From: Candidatus Mcinerneyibacteriota bacterium
GTDB lineage: Bacteria; AUK180; JAQVHJ01
Assembly: GCA_030630935.1 (NCBI GenBank)
Contig: DAOVMD010000045.1
Coordinates: 1-12,199, forward strand
DNA: 12,199 nt
Direction of reading: 5' to 3'
The position numbers and the translations under genes were made by a program. Numbering within the stretch: position 1 is the stretch's first letter; every line of letters starts with the position of its first letter. Positions 1 to 5,289 of the stretch are shown here, one piece after another. Below the pieces are notes generated by a model that saw only the letters and a program-made list of their open reading frames with translations, searched no databases and was not told the origin of the DNA.

Positions 1-637
1 AAGGAAGGAACTTTGTCCCGATTTTAATCTTCACCCCATGCTGTCTTAATTCACAAAGGGTAATGTCCCCGCCTTCGTTTAAAATCTTTTTGAGTGTGGT
101 TTTACAGTCAAAGCCGCACTCACCGCATTTCTCATGTGTGAATCCGGGTAAGATCACAGGAACATTCTCCTCAATGAAATCAACAAAATTCTCAATATCT
201 TCTAATGCATTGAAGACAGGCAGCCCTGAGATATTTGTTTTTCCCTTAGAAAATATCCCGGTTATTCCGATTGTAAAATCATCTATTCTGTTCAGGTCTT
301 CCTCGTCTTTAAGTGAAATGATTTTTGGAATAATTTCTTTAGAGAATCCTTCACAGACAACCCAATCAACATCATAATGATTTATAATTTCTCTTAAATC
401 TAAACTTTCTTTAAACATAATATCAGTTTCATTTAATCCCTTTGCTGTTACAGGATTTGCACCGATCAATTTATGCCGATATGTATCAGTCCCTTCAATA
501 TCAAGTGTAAAATCAGCAAAGTGGATATCCTTGATTGAAGCAACTGAATAACCACGTTTAATTAGTTCTTGAATTATATTCTCAACAGTAGTTGTTTTAC
601 CCGTATTGGAATGACCAAAGATGGAAAAAACTTTCAT
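1..637 (-). CDS. mobB: MobB-type P-loop GTP-binding protein with C-terminal Cys motif (partial, 3' end outside window)
   Basis: The 212 visible residues start at an ATG (635-637) preceded by a strong SD (GAGGTG). A P-loop GHSNTGKTT lies at residues 8-16. Further MobB-like signatures are a TDTYRHKLIGA segment (50-60), the counterpart of the DxxRHxxAGA region, and VVCEGFSKEIIPKI (93-106), resembling the EGxK..PKI motif. MobB proteins bind GTP and assist molybdenum-cofactor maturation. After the MobB core comes a cysteine cluster, C171-x2-C174-x3-C178 with C195, as seen in longer archaeal and anaerobe MobB-like proteins; it may bind Fe-S or zinc. The C-terminus lies beyond base 1. The gene begins 15 bp after ecfT on the same strand, so it is probably the last visible gene of the ECF operon. 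The family call is firm; the molybdopterin-specific role is inferred, because no other Moco gene is in view. Confidence 0.8.
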   Translation of the reverse strand, partial: MKVFSIFGHSNTGKTTTVENIIQELIKRGYSVASIKDIHFADFTLDIEGTDTYRHKLIGANPVTAKGLNETDIMFKESLDLREIINHYDVDWVVCEGFSKEIIPKIISLKDEEDLNRIDDFTIGITGIFSKGKTNISGLPVFNALEDIENFVDFIEENVPVILPGFTHEKCGECGFDCKTTLKKILNEGGDITLCELRQHGVKIKIGTKFLP

Positions 638-652
638 GTTTCACCTCATAAT

Positions 653-1381
653 TTAAATTTTAATAAATCTGAATACAGCAATTAAAAAACTAAAAAGAAT
701 ACACACCATTAAATAATCGCTAAAGACAAGTGAACCTTCTTTTGAAATATAGCTAAGTTTATTTGCTCTGAACCCTCTCAGATCGAGAACTGTTGCTAAT
801 TTTCTCGCAGTGAAAATTGAAGATATCATTAACGGGAATAAAATTTTCATATAATCAGAGAGGTTAACAAAGATTCTATTTTTTTGAATAATACCTTGTT
901 TAAGGCGTAAAATATTTAGAGTCTTATCTGCTTTTTCTTTAATAAGCGGAATGAATCTATATGCAGTCAGTAAAGGGATAAGTAGTGAATGTGGCAGTCT
1001 TAATTTTTTCATTGCATTAAAGAATTCCTTTTCCGAAACATCCTTGAGCATTGTGGGTGTTGTTAAGATAATCATGATTGTAATTACCGCAAGGATAAAT
1101 CTTAGAAGTCCTTCATCATATAAAATAGCAAAGTTATTAATCTTAATTACCGGTTCACCAATTCTGGAAAATATAGAATGAAGTATAAAAATACTGAATA
1201 TAAACGAGAATAAAAATTTATATTTTCTGAATGGAAAGAAAATATCTCCACCAATAATTTGTGTAATGAGTAATGCAGATAGATAAATAAATATTATAAA
1301 ATGGATATCTGTAGTAAATATGGAAGCTAATGATAATGAAATGATTATTAATAACTTTATTCTGACATCAATTTTTGACAT
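653..1381 (-). CDS. ecfT: ECF transporter T component (transmembrane coupling protein)
   Basis: This 242-residue membrane protein has several hydrophobic segments (about 8-40, 55-72, 92-110, 220-240) and a long amphipathic cytoplasmic region (about 110-210). EcfT proteins join the two ATPases to the substrate-binding S component through two Ala-Arg-Gly-type coupling helices. Here the second is recognisable as LDLRGF (199-204), while the first is divergent, LRLKQG at 158-163 instead of an ARG motif. Length and layout fit the CbiQ/EcfT family. The ATG at 1379-1381 lies inside the end of ecfA (14-bp overlap), indicating translational coupling, and no strong SD is seen. It is the third gene of the ecfS-ecfA-ecfT-mobB run. 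Confidence 0.85.
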   Translation of the reverse strand: MSKIDVRIKLLIIISLSLASIFTTDIHFIIFIYLSALLITQIIGGDIFFPFRKYKFLFSFIFSIFILHSIFSRIGEPVIKINNFAILYDEGLLRFILAVITIMIILTTPTMLKDVSEKEFFNAMKKLRLPHSLLIPLLTAYRFIPLIKEKADKTLNILRLKQGIIQKNRIFVNLSDYMKILFPLMISSIFTARKLATVLDLRGFRANKLSYISKEGSLVFSDYLMVCILFSFLIAVFRFIKI

Positions 1382-2111
1382 TATTTAGTGACCAATTAAA
1401 ATTAAAAGATTTAAAGTATTGTTCCGACTTAAAAAAATCAGAAGTATTACCAAGGAAAGCAATCTCACCATCGTCGAGAATTAAGATTTTATCTGAATCA
1501 GATAGATTGTTTATATTTCTATCAACATTAATGATAATATTATTTTTATTTTTATGCTCCATCAAAATCCTTTTTATTTTTTGAGTTGTGCTCTCGTCGA
1601 GTGATGAGAAGATTTCATCCAGGAGTAAAATCTTCGGTTCAATAACAAGGTTAATACAGAGTAGAGCTAGTTTCTTTTGACCATAGGATAAAATATTTGG
1701 ATTGGAATACCGGAATTTCTCTAAACCTGTGATTTCCAAAACCGATTGAATTTTTAATTCAGCTTCTGATTCAGCAATGTTCATGTTTTCGAGTAGGAAA
1801 ATAATTTCATCTTCTAAAGTTGTGAAGAAAAACTGGTCATCGGGATTTTGAAAGATCAAGCCGAATATTTCCGGTTTTTCATTGAGAGGAATATCAGATA
1901 TGTTTTTGTCCTTGAATTTAATCTCACCGGAAAAATCACCTTTTTGAAATTCAGGTATTATCCCGACTAAAAATTTTAATAATGTTGTTTTCCCCGCTGC
2001 GTTATTCCCGCTTATCCCAAAGTATTCTCCTAACTTTATATCGAAGGAGATATTATTTAATTTAAAAATTGAACTGGGATATTTGAAATTTATATTTGAA
2101 GCTTTTAACAT
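1368..2111 (-). CDS. ecfA: ECF transporter ATP-binding protein
   Basis: This 247-residue ABC ATPase powers the ECF importer. With the start at 2111, Walker A is GNNAAGKTT (35-43), the Q-loop is FQNPDDQ (87-93), the signature is LSYGQ (141-145), and Walker B is ILLLDE (161-166) followed by the D-loop SSLD (169-172). The H-loop normally reads T-H-D, but here it is NVDRN (195-199) with no histidine. I chose the ATG at 2111 over a TTG at 2129. The TTG is itself part of the SD-like TTGAGGAAG, whose GAGGAAG lies 9 nt before the ATG, and the ATG falls one base after the ecfS stop. Only one ATPase gene is present, so the complex is either a homodimer or uses a second ATPase encoded elsewhere. Confidence 0.9.
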   Translation of the reverse strand: MLKASNINFKYPSSIFKLNNISFDIKLGEYFGISGNNAAGKTTLLKFLVGIIPEFQKGDFSGEIKFKDKNISDIPLNEKPEIFGLIFQNPDDQFFFTTLEDEIIFLLENMNIAESEAELKIQSVLEITGLEKFRYSNPNILSYGQKKLALLCINLVIEPKILLLDEIFSSLDESTTQKIKRILMEHKNKNNIIINVDRNINNLSDSDKILILDDGEIAFLGNTSDFFKSEQYFKSFNFNWSLNNVKN

Positions 2112-2112
2112 T

Positions 2113-2661
2113 TTAAATAGCTTCCTCAATTATATTTACTGCATAATAAGAAAGAGCCCCACCGATTGCTCCCATAGTAAATGAGATTCCTCCACCAATT
2201 AAAATAAGTAATGAGGTTACTATACCTCGTTGATAAAGAAAGATAACTAATAATGCTCCAAAAAAGTTAAAGGCTCCACCAGCTAAGATGTAAGAAAAGA
2301 TATTGTTTAACTTACCTGTTAAGTAACTGATGAAATCACTAAAGAAACAGGGGAGGGTATATGTAATCAATGATAACCCGCCATGGCTTCCGAAACCTAT
2401 TAAATTTACAAGGATAGCTTGAATAATTCCGATTAACGAAATTGCCCCGGTTTTCTTAACAAGCCCGGAACCGGTAAGAATAATGAATGTATAGACTATA
2501 CCTAATAAACTACCACCGGGTAAGGGAATGATACTTCTTATAATTCCGGATATACTCGCAGTAACAGGTTTAATTGCAATCCCTATGCCTGCAAATAAAG
2601 CAATATAAACAAGGTCAAGTGTTGAAAAATAAAACTTTTTTCGCTTTGTCTTTTTATTCAT
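2113..2661 (-). CDS. ECF transporter S component, substrate unknown
   Basis: This very hydrophobic 182-residue protein has a basic N-terminus (MNKKTKRKK) and about five or six membrane segments, the size and shape of an S component. Loop motifs include PLPGGSLLG (47-55) and GFGSHGGLSLITYTLP (about 89-104). The latter feels like a specific, conserved S-component subfamily, but I cannot assign a vitamin or metal from it. It is the first gene of the operon, one base ahead of ecfA. The ATG at 2659-2661 has no clear SD; the region before it is T8 followed by A5. The transporter call rests on fold-like hydrophobicity plus adjacency to ecfA and ecfT. A link to a molybdopterin or metallocofactor precursor is only suggested by the neighbouring mobB-like gene. 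Confidence 0.8.
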   Translation of the reverse strand: MNKKTKRKKFYFSTLDLVYIALFAGIGIAIKPVTASISGIIRSIIPLPGGSLLGIVYTFIILTGSGLVKKTGAISLIGIIQAILVNLIGFGSHGGLSLITYTLPCFFSDFISYLTGKLNNIFSYILAGGAFNFFGALLVIFLYQRGIVTSLLILIGGGISFTMGAIGGALSYYAVNIIEEAI

Positions 2662-2835
2662 ATTTTATACTTTTTAAAAAAAACTTCCCGGTTGTAATAT
2701 ATAGAAACTATTAGTAATTACTAATTTAAATTTCTTCTTTTCCAAACACGGGAGGCATATTAGTTTTCTAATATACCCTATCACCTGGGAATCTTGTCCT
2801 TTCTCGAATTCAGATTTTCCAAGTCGAAAGAAATC
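2662..2835 (-). promoter_or_regulatory. Structured 5' leader of the ecf operon, riboswitch candidate
   Basis: The leader runs from the predicted transcription start (about 2835) to the ecfS ATG, about 170 nt. On the transcript, AUUUCUUU (2834-2827) can pair with GAAGAAAU (2737-2730), closing a domain. Inside it are AAUCU (2816-2812) with AGAUU (2794-2790), and an 11-bp hairpin, 2778-2768 with 2763-2753, capped by AAAA. Downstream, CGGGAAG (2690-2684) precedes a run of eight U (2683-2676). It can pair with CUCCCG (2754-2749), which competes with the hairpin, or with UUCCC (2791-2787). This is a plausible antiterminator/terminator switch. I could not match it by eye to a named riboswitch class. 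Moco RNA would suit the gene context but is unverified. Confidence 0.5.
2710..2725. repeat. Perfect 16-bp palindrome in the ecf leader
   Basis: ATTAGTAATTACTAAT is self-complementary. It lies between the leader's outer stem and the GGGAAG-T8 element. It could be a repressor operator or a small RNA hairpin. Its ATTAG and CTAAT halves also match the arms of the neighbouring AAAA-capped hairpin, allowing alternative pairing. Confidence 0.45.
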
Positions 2836-2841
2836 AATTGG

Positions 2842-2870
2842 ATTATAACATAATATTTTGTAGTTGTCAA
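2842..2870 (-). promoter_or_regulatory. Sigma-70-type promoter of the ecf operon
   Basis: On the minus strand the -35 is TTGACA (2870-2865) and the -10 is TATAAT (2847-2842), separated by exactly 17 bp. Both boxes match the consensus perfectly. Transcription should start near 2835, about 174 nt before the ecfS start codon. A fully consensus promoter in front of a long leader suggests that control acts mainly after initiation. Confidence 0.85.
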
Positions 2871-3184: not shown

Positions 3185-3211
3185 AGAAAAAAGAACGGAG
3201 TTCTTTTTTCT
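3185..3211 (-). terminator. Intrinsic terminator after the ATP-cone kinase gene
   Basis: Arms AGAAAAAAGAAC (3185-3196) and GTTCTTTTTTCT (3200-3211) are perfectly complementary over 12 bp around the loop GGA. On the minus transcript the GAAC/GUUC core is followed by U6. The arms are symmetric, so it could stop transcription in both directions. It overlaps the kinase stop codon (TAG at 3212-3210). The stem is weak in GC, hence moderate confidence. Confidence 0.55.
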
Positions 3212-4559
3212 AGTATTTCAGTTCTGAGCCGCCGATGAATTCTCTAAGTACGGAGTTTGACGGGATACATGAATCGTCTTCAACTGCTTCAATCGGGTCA
3301 AGTAATTCAAACAAGCGTTTTGCACGTAGGTATGCATCAAGTTGTTTTGGTTGATCCTGATATTTATCCATGATTGGCTTAATATATTGAAACAGGTGTT
3401 TTTTCATAACAGGAAGTTCATACGGCATTGCACCATCGAAGATAAAATCAGCATATTTCATATTTGGAATAATATGTTTAATTTCACCTTTCCTTACATA
3501 ATGCCAGTGTCCTACTGTTCTTTCAGGATCATAGCTTCTGAACTGGAAGTCTCTAAGCATTCTTCTCAGGAGTCTATGGTCAGTCCATTTTATGAAATTT
3601 CCGTTTATATCCTTCAACTGGCATAGGGTTTCAATATAGAATTTAAATTTATTCTCTTCCGGGATATGCCCTGTCATACCGTCATAGAATCCGTATAAAG
3701 AATCTATTAATAAAATCTGATTATCTTTCAATCGGAACTTTGTAGATTCTTTTTCTCGCATCCCGGTTTTGAAATTATAAATAGGTACATCAATTTCTTT
3801 CCCATCAATCAGGTCAGAAAGATGTTCACTGATTAAAGTTAGGTCCAGTGCTTCGGGGGTTTCGAAATCATAATCACCAAACTCATCTTTAGGATGATGT
3901 TCCAGGTCAAAATAATAATTATCAACATTTAATGCGACCAATTCCAAACCATGTTTATTTAATGAGTCTTCGATTCGATGTGTTGTTGTGGTTTTTCCTG
4001 ATGAAGACGGTCCTGAGATAATTATCATCCTGATGGTATCAATATGTTTATAAATATTTTGAGCCGCGACGGTTAAACGATAGTTATAATGGTCTTCCGC
4101 TTCTTTTACCAGTTGGCAGAACCTGTCTTTATCCTTAACGATTTTATTTAATTTTTCAACTGTTTCGCACCCATGCTCAACATTCCACCACAGAGTTCTC
4201 CAGATAACATCGTACGGGATATTACCATGTTGGTATTCCTTTTGATCCTTGCCTTTTCGCATTTCATTTCGTTGAGCCCGATATATGATATATGCTTTTG
4301 CAGTCTTTGCATGACCATTTTCAATCAGGATTTTCTCTACTATATTCTGGATACTTTCAACTGTTGGGAGCATCTTTTCACTATATGCAACATTGATAAT
4401 TTCAATTACTTGATTTGTCAGATTTTCTGATAACTCTCGGTTATGCCCACCCACCGCAGCAGCAGACCTGTAAATTGCAAGGGTGATTTTCTCAGGATCA
4501 AAAGATACAAGTTCTCCTGTTCTTTTAATTATCGACTTAATTTTACATTCCTTATACAT
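3210..4559 (-). CDS. Uridine-kinase/phosphoribulokinase-family kinase with N-terminal ATP-cone
   Basis: Residues 5-100 of this 449-residue protein form an ATP-cone: KSIIKRTGELVSFDPEKI at 8-25 and a typical helical tail to RAQRNEMR. ATP-cones sense ATP/dATP in ribonucleotide reductase and NrdR. Residues 177-445 are a Udk/PRK-type P-loop kinase with Walker A GPSSSGKTT (183-191), DNYYFD (213-218), DYDFETPEALD (229-239), a basic LLRRMLRDFQFR stretch (330-341), and the C-terminal VLREFIGGS (437-445). That last motif is characteristic of longer uridine-kinase-like proteins that usually carry a TGS/ThrRS-like N-terminus; here the ATP-cone occupies that place. The substrate is probably a nucleoside or other small hydroxyl compound, but is not proven. 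The ATG has TAAGGAG nine bases upstream, overlapping the stop of the nucleotidyltransferase gene, so the two are cotranscribed. Confidence 0.85.
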   Translation of the reverse strand: MYKECKIKSIIKRTGELVSFDPEKITLAIYRSAAAVGGHNRELSENLTNQVIEIINVAYSEKMLPTVESIQNIVEKILIENGHAKTAKAYIIYRAQRNEMRKGKDQKEYQHGNIPYDVIWRTLWWNVEHGCETVEKLNKIVKDKDRFCQLVKEAEDHYNYRLTVAAQNIYKHIDTIRMIIISGPSSSGKTTTTHRIEDSLNKHGLELVALNVDNYYFDLEHHPKDEFGDYDFETPEALDLTLISEHLSDLIDGKEIDVPIYNFKTGMREKESTKFRLKDNQILLIDSLYGFYDGMTGHIPEENKFKFYIETLCQLKDINGNFIKWTDHRLLRRMLRDFQFRSYDPERTVGHWHYVRKGEIKHIIPNMKYADFIFDGAMPYELPVMKKHLFQYIKPIMDKYQDQPKQLDAYLRAKRLFELLDPIEAVEDDSCIPSNSVLREFIGGSELKY

Positions 4560-4572
4560 TATTAATAACTCC

Positions 4573-5289
4573 TTATCTTGTTTTAAAATGGTATTGTAAT
4601 CTTTTTAATCTTTCCGGAGTTCCAAAATCTAACCAGAACTCATAATGCGGATAAGCATGGATATTAACACACTGACGTAATAACGGAAGAATAATATCAT
4701 TCGAAAGTTCATAGTATGTTCCTGATGAACAGGAGGATAAATGTTTTTCGAAAATTGCCGGATTCCAAATTGAAATCCCGGTAAATATCCCGCCCTGTGC
4801 CACTGGAGCTGGACTGAAATTTTTACCGCTAAACTCAATTACTTGGAATTTTGAATCAATTTTCATGTCGAAACATTTTCTGGAAGGTTTAAATACTAAT
4901 GTTAAATCACTTTTCATTTCATTATGAAATGCCATAAGTTTCTTTAAATTGATTTCAGTAAAAATATCGGAATTGATTACTATAAAATTATCTTCGGATA
5001 GATATTCCTTACAATTAATAATTGCTCCACCGGTTCCCAGGAGCTTCTCTTCATAGGAGAAATAGAATGAGAAATCTTCCAGACCGCTTGTGGTTGCAAA
5101 GAACCTGATTATCTCCTTCCATAAATGATGAAGATTGATTGCAGCATTAGAAATCTCTAATTCCCTGAGTTTATTAAGAATATGAATAATACTTTCCTTG
5201 TTACCAAATCTTATTAAACTTTTCGGGATCGAATTTGTTAATGGCCTGAGACGAGTACCTAAACCTGCAGAAAGGATTAAAGCTTTCAA
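4573..5289 (-). CDS. Sugar-1-phosphate nucleotidyltransferase (NDP-sugar pyrophosphorylase, MurU-like)
   Basis: This 238-residue protein transfers a nucleotidyl group to a sugar 1-phosphate. Motifs are GLGTRLRPLT (9-18) and PKSL (22-25) for NTP binding, GTGG (85-88), NSD (106-108) as metal/nucleotide-binding Asp, FTGI (169-172), and FWLDFGTPERL (218-228) as the second metal-binding site. Short length and the lack of a hexapeptide tail resemble MurU (MurNAc-1-P uridylyltransferase) and related enzymes; exact sugar and nucleotide remain open. The start is TTG at 5289-5287: an in-frame TAG lies immediately before it and AGGAGA lies six bases upstream, so no earlier start is possible. It is the first gene of a two-gene operon with the ATP-cone kinase. 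Confidence 0.85.
   Translation of the reverse strand: MKALILSAGLGTRLRPLTNSIPKSLIRFGNKESIIHILNKLRELEISNAAINLHHLWKEIIRFFATTSGLEDFSFYFSYEEKLLGTGGAIINCKEYLSEDNFIVINSDIFTEINLKKLMAFHNEMKSDLTLVFKPSRKCFDMKIDSKFQVIEFSGKNFSPAPVAQGGIFTGISIWNPAIFEKHLSSCSSGTYYELSNDIILPLLRQCVNIHAYPHYEFWLDFGTPERLKRLQYHFKTR

Follow-up and report, generated by a model that had tools for sequence, protein, structure and literature searches.

The leader of a small transporter operon in Candidatus Mcinerneyibacteriota is, judging by its sequence, near certainly a member of a known riboswitch family that is predicted to respond to the molybdenum or tungsten cofactor (Moco or Tuco). This P3-less Moco RNA probably controls an ECF importer, whose predicted substrate is Moco/Tuco itself or a late precursor of it (molybdopterin). 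The wider proposition, in which a dedicated bacterial ECF system, accompanied in relatives by a TonB-dependent receptor, imports the intact cofactor under this riboswitch and in which entire anaerobic lineages that lost the synthesis depend on such import, has in our judgment an even chance of being correct. The observations behind it are the RNA family, the operon, the TonB/ECF gene context, and the missing cofactor synthesis next to retained cofactor users in relatives, from which we infer the substrate and the route of import. The window referred to below is the whole analyzed stretch of 12,199 nucleotides (contig DAOVMD010000045.1 of assembly GCA_030630935.1), and the operon is encoded on its minus strand.

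The initial annotation of this region, made from the letters alone, had described a perfect promoter, a non-coding leader of about 170 nt, a closing stem, an inner stem, and a hairpin capped by AAAA. All of these were recovered. The promoter (2870-2842) carries a TG before its second hexamer, the leader measures 174 nt from the expected start near 2835 to the ecfS ATG at 2661, and the three stems correspond to P1, P2, and P4 of the Moco RNA model. The features of the leader are the following:

2842-2870, minus strand: sigma-70 promoter TTGACA-N17-TATAAT, TG-extended, matching the consensus at 12/12 positions
2718-2842, minus strand: Moco RNA aptamer (RF01055), P3-less, with its structured core at 2730-2834, supported by cmscan and a fold z of -3.8
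2753-2778, minus strand: P4 hairpin of 11 bp (2778-2768/2763-2753) with an AAAA loop, where relatives have GAAA
2676-2753, minus strand: possible expression platform made of UCCCGUGUU (2753-2745) and AACCGGGA (2693-2686), followed by AG-U8 (U8 at 2683-2676), with an anti-P1 hairpin enclosed

A covariance scan of the leader (cmscan, Rfam 15), which had been proposed as a check, returned RF01055, the Moco RNA or molybdenum/tungsten cofactor riboswitch, over model positions 1 to 135 with 51 bits and an E-value of 5.4e-10 (gathering threshold of 36 bits). This full-length match supports the earlier suspicion of a riboswitch, and the ligand that had been guessed at, something like a molybdenum or tungsten cofactor, belongs to the same class. 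The minimum-energy fold of the 107-nt aptamer consists of the very stems listed above, including the closing stem of 8 bp (2834-2827/2737-2730) that is P1. With -30.2 kcal/mol (z of -3.8, equalled by 0/200 shuffles) this fold stands far outside what chance would give. At 2755-2739, the leader contains an exact copy of the conserved junction core CCUCCCG..UUUGGAAA. Covariation, likewise named as a check, is evident in P4, where 85 of 88 pairs are standard with several pair types per position across eight P3-less leaders (the one in the window and seven from relatives). The model positions of P3 are deleted in the match, and P3 is also missing in 8/8 Moco RNAs examined in relatives (G002 to G006 and three in the distant genome G087). 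P3-less members make up 58 of 176 Moco RNAs and have been tied to Tuco (Regulski et al. 2008, PMC2408646).

With its full-length model, P1/P2/P4/P5 architecture, CCUCCCG...UUUGGAAA core, and P3-less subtype, the leader RNA taken alone is ordinary. It differs from the published motif in its AAAA loop, its changed P2 receptor, and its target, an ECF importer, whereas the targets named for the family are genes that use the cofactor or serve metal transport or biosynthesis (PMC2408646). In most Moco RNAs, P4 is capped by a GAAA tetraloop for which P2 holds a receptor, and members with a GCAA loop have no receptor (PMC2408646). The joint loss of the GAAA loop and the P2 receptor sequence in the window therefore fits the family. 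This Moco RNA is the sole copy found in the window's own genome, which is 80% complete.

The part of the leader downstream of the aptamer is less clear-cut. The element CGGGAAG-U8 is present as described, and an exclusive fold involving it was computed; instead of the pairing with CUCCCG (2754-2749) drawn in the initial annotation, however, the computed stem joins UCCCG-U-GUU at 2753-2745 with AACCGGGA at 2693-2686 (8 bp, one bulge) ahead of AG-U8. In the computed fold of the full leader, this stem is incompatible with P1 and with the end of P4, and the alternative is favored with -40.9 kcal/mol over -33.1 kcal/mol with P1 forced. When the downstream 68 nt were shuffled, 99 of 1000 sequences folded as well and 221 of 1000 broke P1, so the two mutually exclusive folds were obtained as claimed but the alternative lies weakly above chance and is suggestive at most. 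A switch to a terminator is plausible from the modeled folds, and a simple terminator scan found no intrinsic terminator in the leader. Because the stem before U8 competes with the aptamer, the ligand would, as drawn, promote read-through, which is the opposite of the E. coli moaA leader, where the ligand represses (PMC2408646). A clean terminating switch was therefore not adopted, given a fold weakly above shuffles and a logic opposite to that of the tested Moco RNA. No such U-tract element was found in the relatives' leaders that were read, and the relatives from the same class mostly have ordinary Shine-Dalgarno sites shortly 3′ of the aptamer. The direction of regulation in our preferred explanation is accordingly something we infer.

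The leader is followed by an operon in which the S, A, and T components of an ECF transporter are all encoded, with mobB in last position:

2113-2661, minus strand: ecfS, predicted substrate-binding ECF S component with a YkoE-like fold (AlphaFold model; PF09819 with E 0.018)
1368-2129, minus strand: ecfA, ECF ATPase (PF00005; TIGR04520 with E 2.5e-46, under the curated cut-off)
653-1381, minus strand: ecfT, transmembrane coupling protein of the CbiQ family (PF02361 with E 8.5e-16)
2-637, minus strand: mobB, molybdopterin-guanine dinucleotide adaptor, running off the contig (PF03205 with E 2e-24; TIGR00176 above cut-off)

No Pfam family matches EcfS above cut-off, and neither EcfS nor a close homologue nor the PF00174 protein matched the sequence of a solved structure. 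Scanning genome contigs with the single EcfS protein likewise yielded no confirmed match. The closest fold to the predicted EcfS structure is YkoE (5edl, Z 19.5, rmsd of 2.6 over 170 residues), followed among S components by ThiT (Z 12.8). This modeled similarity speaks to some degree against cofactor import and raises the question of whether the substrate is thiamine or its pyrimidine, as for YkoEDC, the Moco RNA being placed there by a quirk of operon fusion. In addition to the fold, PF09819 matches, strongly so in the homologue of G146 (E 2.8e-19), and the invariant Gln81 on helix 4 may be equivalent to Gln95 of YkoE (PMC5037267). Both systems are riboswitch-controlled operons of S, A, and T components, but the group I ECF transporter YkoEDC has a THI box where the window has a Moco RNA, and MobB is part of the operon here. 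The residues with which YkoE binds thiamine, Trp49 on helix 2 and Glu77 on helix 3 (PMC5037267), are furthermore unmatched: judged by helix rather than by superposition, 8/8 homologues have no Trp on helix 2 and no Glu on helix 3, while Lys31-Pro32, Pro48-Gly-Gly, Tyr57, Gln81, Asp109, and Asn132 are invariant among them. No TPP riboswitch was found in the loci scanned with Rfam, and Moco RNA and MobB recur with EcfS in two lineages. The thiamine reading is for these reasons disfavored, and we hold it to be very improbable.

Elsewhere in the window, the gene at 3210-4559 (minus strand) encodes a protein of the uridine kinase family with an N-terminal ATP-cone domain (PF03477 and PF00485). The ATP-cone has a regulatory function and is known chiefly from ribonucleotide reductases. 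A perfect 12-bp inverted repeat with a 3-nt loop and flanking A/T runs (3185-3211) lies where the uridine kinase gene ends and is likely a bidirectional terminator. The gene at 4573-5289 was considered as MobA and rejected, as it resembles a sugar-1-phosphate nucleotidyltransferase.

Relatives of EcfS are rare (9 of 386 genomes). In G087, which encodes an EcfS 37% identical to that of the window, a Moco RNA is followed in order by genes for a lipoprotein-like protein, a TonB-dependent receptor, a secreted PF00174 protein, and EcfS, and then by a PF01663 homologue (phosphodiesterase/pyrophosphatase), a second PF00174-like protein, two EcfA, EcfT, and MobB. The PF01663 homologue and PF00174 proteins thus lie inside a TonB-ECF operon under a Moco RNA (locus L039, 10646-12594). 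Going by family names, on which these roles rest, the former could split dinucleotide forms and the latter could serve as extracytoplasmic binders of the cofactor. In G002 to G006, members of the window's class, the sole Moco RNA found is directly upstream of the gene for a TonB receptor; EcfS is present in 4/5 of these genomes, away from the Moco RNA and adjoining EcfA. In two of them (G003 with L045 at 7702-13652, and G002 with L046), the EcfS gene comes immediately after NuoE/NuoF-like genes and one for a 1054-aa Fe-S/pyridine nucleotide oxidoreductase that has a Molybdop_Fe4S4 domain but not the PF00384 domain. The gene downstream of EcfS in G110, G146, and G283 encodes a secreted protein whose match to PF00174, a molybdopterin-binding domain, is weak to moderate, so that such proteins adjoin EcfS in four genomes, G087 included. 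No Moco RNA was found in the EcfS stretches read of G110, G146, and G283, which counts against the import reading. In G048, which has 13 AOR-family genes and can make Moco by the full pathway, a divergent EcfS (25% identity) shares one strand with a TonB receptor and ECF genes (L041, 8386-13796).

Among 23 flanks of Moco RNAs in other lineages, in which gene names were assigned by eye, no TonB or ECF-S gene was recognized; the recognizable first downstream genes encode TupA/ModA-type transporters, moaA, moeA, and AOR or FDH-like enzymes. In a rival reading, the ECF system, with or without TonB, would import tungstate or molybdate under a Moco/Tuco riboswitch, with the metal perhaps bound to a metallophore. 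Molybdate/tungstate transporters are common targets of Moco RNAs (PMC2408646), as is illustrated by several TupA/ModA-like genes that follow such RNAs and by G087, where two further Moco RNAs precede a TupABC-like operon and moaA-moaC, and certain ECF systems (CbiMNQO) move metal ions. Against metal import, G087 has TupABC under a separate Moco RNA in addition to its ECF operon, the S component is vitamin-type, with YkoE and ThiT as nearest folds, and the metal alone would be useless to a cell without MoaA, MoaC, and MoeA. We therefore consider metal import unlikely.

The synthesis genes are indeed missing in most genomes of the window's class. No true MoaA (TIGR02666) was found in G000, G001, G002, G003, G004, G006, and G110, where the model hits other radical-SAM proteins only, none of them scoring over 85 bits (cut-off of 284). 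These seven genomes also lack MoaC and PF00994 proteins of the MogA/MoaB type, each genome having at most one PF00994 protein, of 410 to 428 aa and CinA-like by eye. MoeA_N was found in none of G000 to G006 and G110. G005 is different in that it encodes MoaC as well as MoaA, a MogA-like protein, and a MoeA-like protein without MoeA_N (L097), alone so in its sampled family; the absence of MoeA_N by itself is consequently no proof of auxotrophy. The completeness of G002, G003, G004, G006, and G110 is 91 to 96%. Cofactor users are nevertheless present, with AOR in G002 to G006 and G110 and formate dehydrogenase-type PF00384 enzymes in G001, G004, G006, and G110, which in G001 and G004 adjoin MobA- and FdhD-like genes. 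As far as gene content tells from searches for MoaA, MoaC, MoeA_N, PF00994, AOR, and PF00384, genomes without synthesis genes retain cofactor-using enzymes and the final steps, and the early steps and metal insertion are missing. In the window's own genome (80% complete) neither AOR nor a PF00384 enzyme was found, which counts against the import reading and makes a need for the cofactor in this organism presumptive.

Across the 386 genomes, EcfS occurs in 7 of 23 with AOR and without MoeA against 1 of 110 with both (Fisher p 1.4e-5), a test that counts related genomes where independent lineages number about three. AOR without MoeA_N and without EcfS was seen in 15 genomes (G075, G083, G107, G144, G207, G216, G225, G233, G245, G261, G302, G316, G326, G345, and G373), some of which may use other cofactor routes.

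Because synthesis genes are absent and W/Mo enzymes are kept, the cofactor would need to come from outside the cell, and with a Moco/Tuco riboswitch on importer genes, import of the cofactor or a late precursor is the simplest explanation, which we hold to be somewhat more likely than not. The importer would bring in a ready-made pyranopterin cofactor, loaded with Mo or W, or a late precursor, for example molybdopterin; in relatives, the outer membrane would be crossed through the TonB-dependent receptor under the same type of riboswitch. In the cytoplasm, MobB and MobA would then produce the guanine-dinucleotide form for formate dehydrogenase, or the cofactor without nucleotide would be passed to aldehyde oxidoreductase. 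Where synthesis is absent, the cytoplasmic cofactor level sensed by the riboswitch would amount to a report of import. The retention of MobA and MobB favors import at the level of molybdopterin rather than of the dinucleotide. It also fits import of an early precursor (cPMP or metal-free molybdopterin) with the metal inserted by an unrecognized enzyme, as the imported form is then probably not the finished dinucleotide, and a vitamin-type fold would suit a pterin. cPMP, however, requires molybdopterin synthase and a metal insertase, and MoeA and MogA/MoaB are absent too. Their loss along with MoaA/MoaC favors the metal-loaded cofactor, and import of an early precursor seems to us rather unlikely. 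For import of the cofactor or late precursor, a further difficulty is that the system is retained in G005 and G087, both of which possess synthesis genes, a pattern that is compatible with salvage alongside synthesis.

Riboswitch-controlled uptake of cofactors through ECF and TonB systems is known; the predicted substrate is new to bacterial import in the papers searched. Cofactor riboswitches likewise control outer- and inner-membrane importer genes for B12 or thiamine where synthesis is lacking, for example in Caldithrix (PMC5317091), the difference being that the ligand class here is Moco/Tuco. The passage of mature Moco from bacteria to another organism is documented for C. elegans, which takes up dietary Moco (PMC9793310); that recipient is an animal, its transport mechanism is unknown, and no homologous gene was identified here. 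Searches of open-access papers yielded no bacterial Moco importer, and a model study of E. coli termed solutions with Moco uptake unrealistic (PMC3423039).

Bacterial Moco uptake is no accepted trait, and the system described here points to a possible undescribed bacterial route for importing the ready-made cofactor. If true, it would be good genomic evidence that Moco/Tuco is a shared nutrient of anaerobic communities. With EcfS, the TonB receptor, and the secreted molybdopterin-fold proteins named as candidate genes, how this cofactor gets across membranes, a question open in animals too, would become directly testable.
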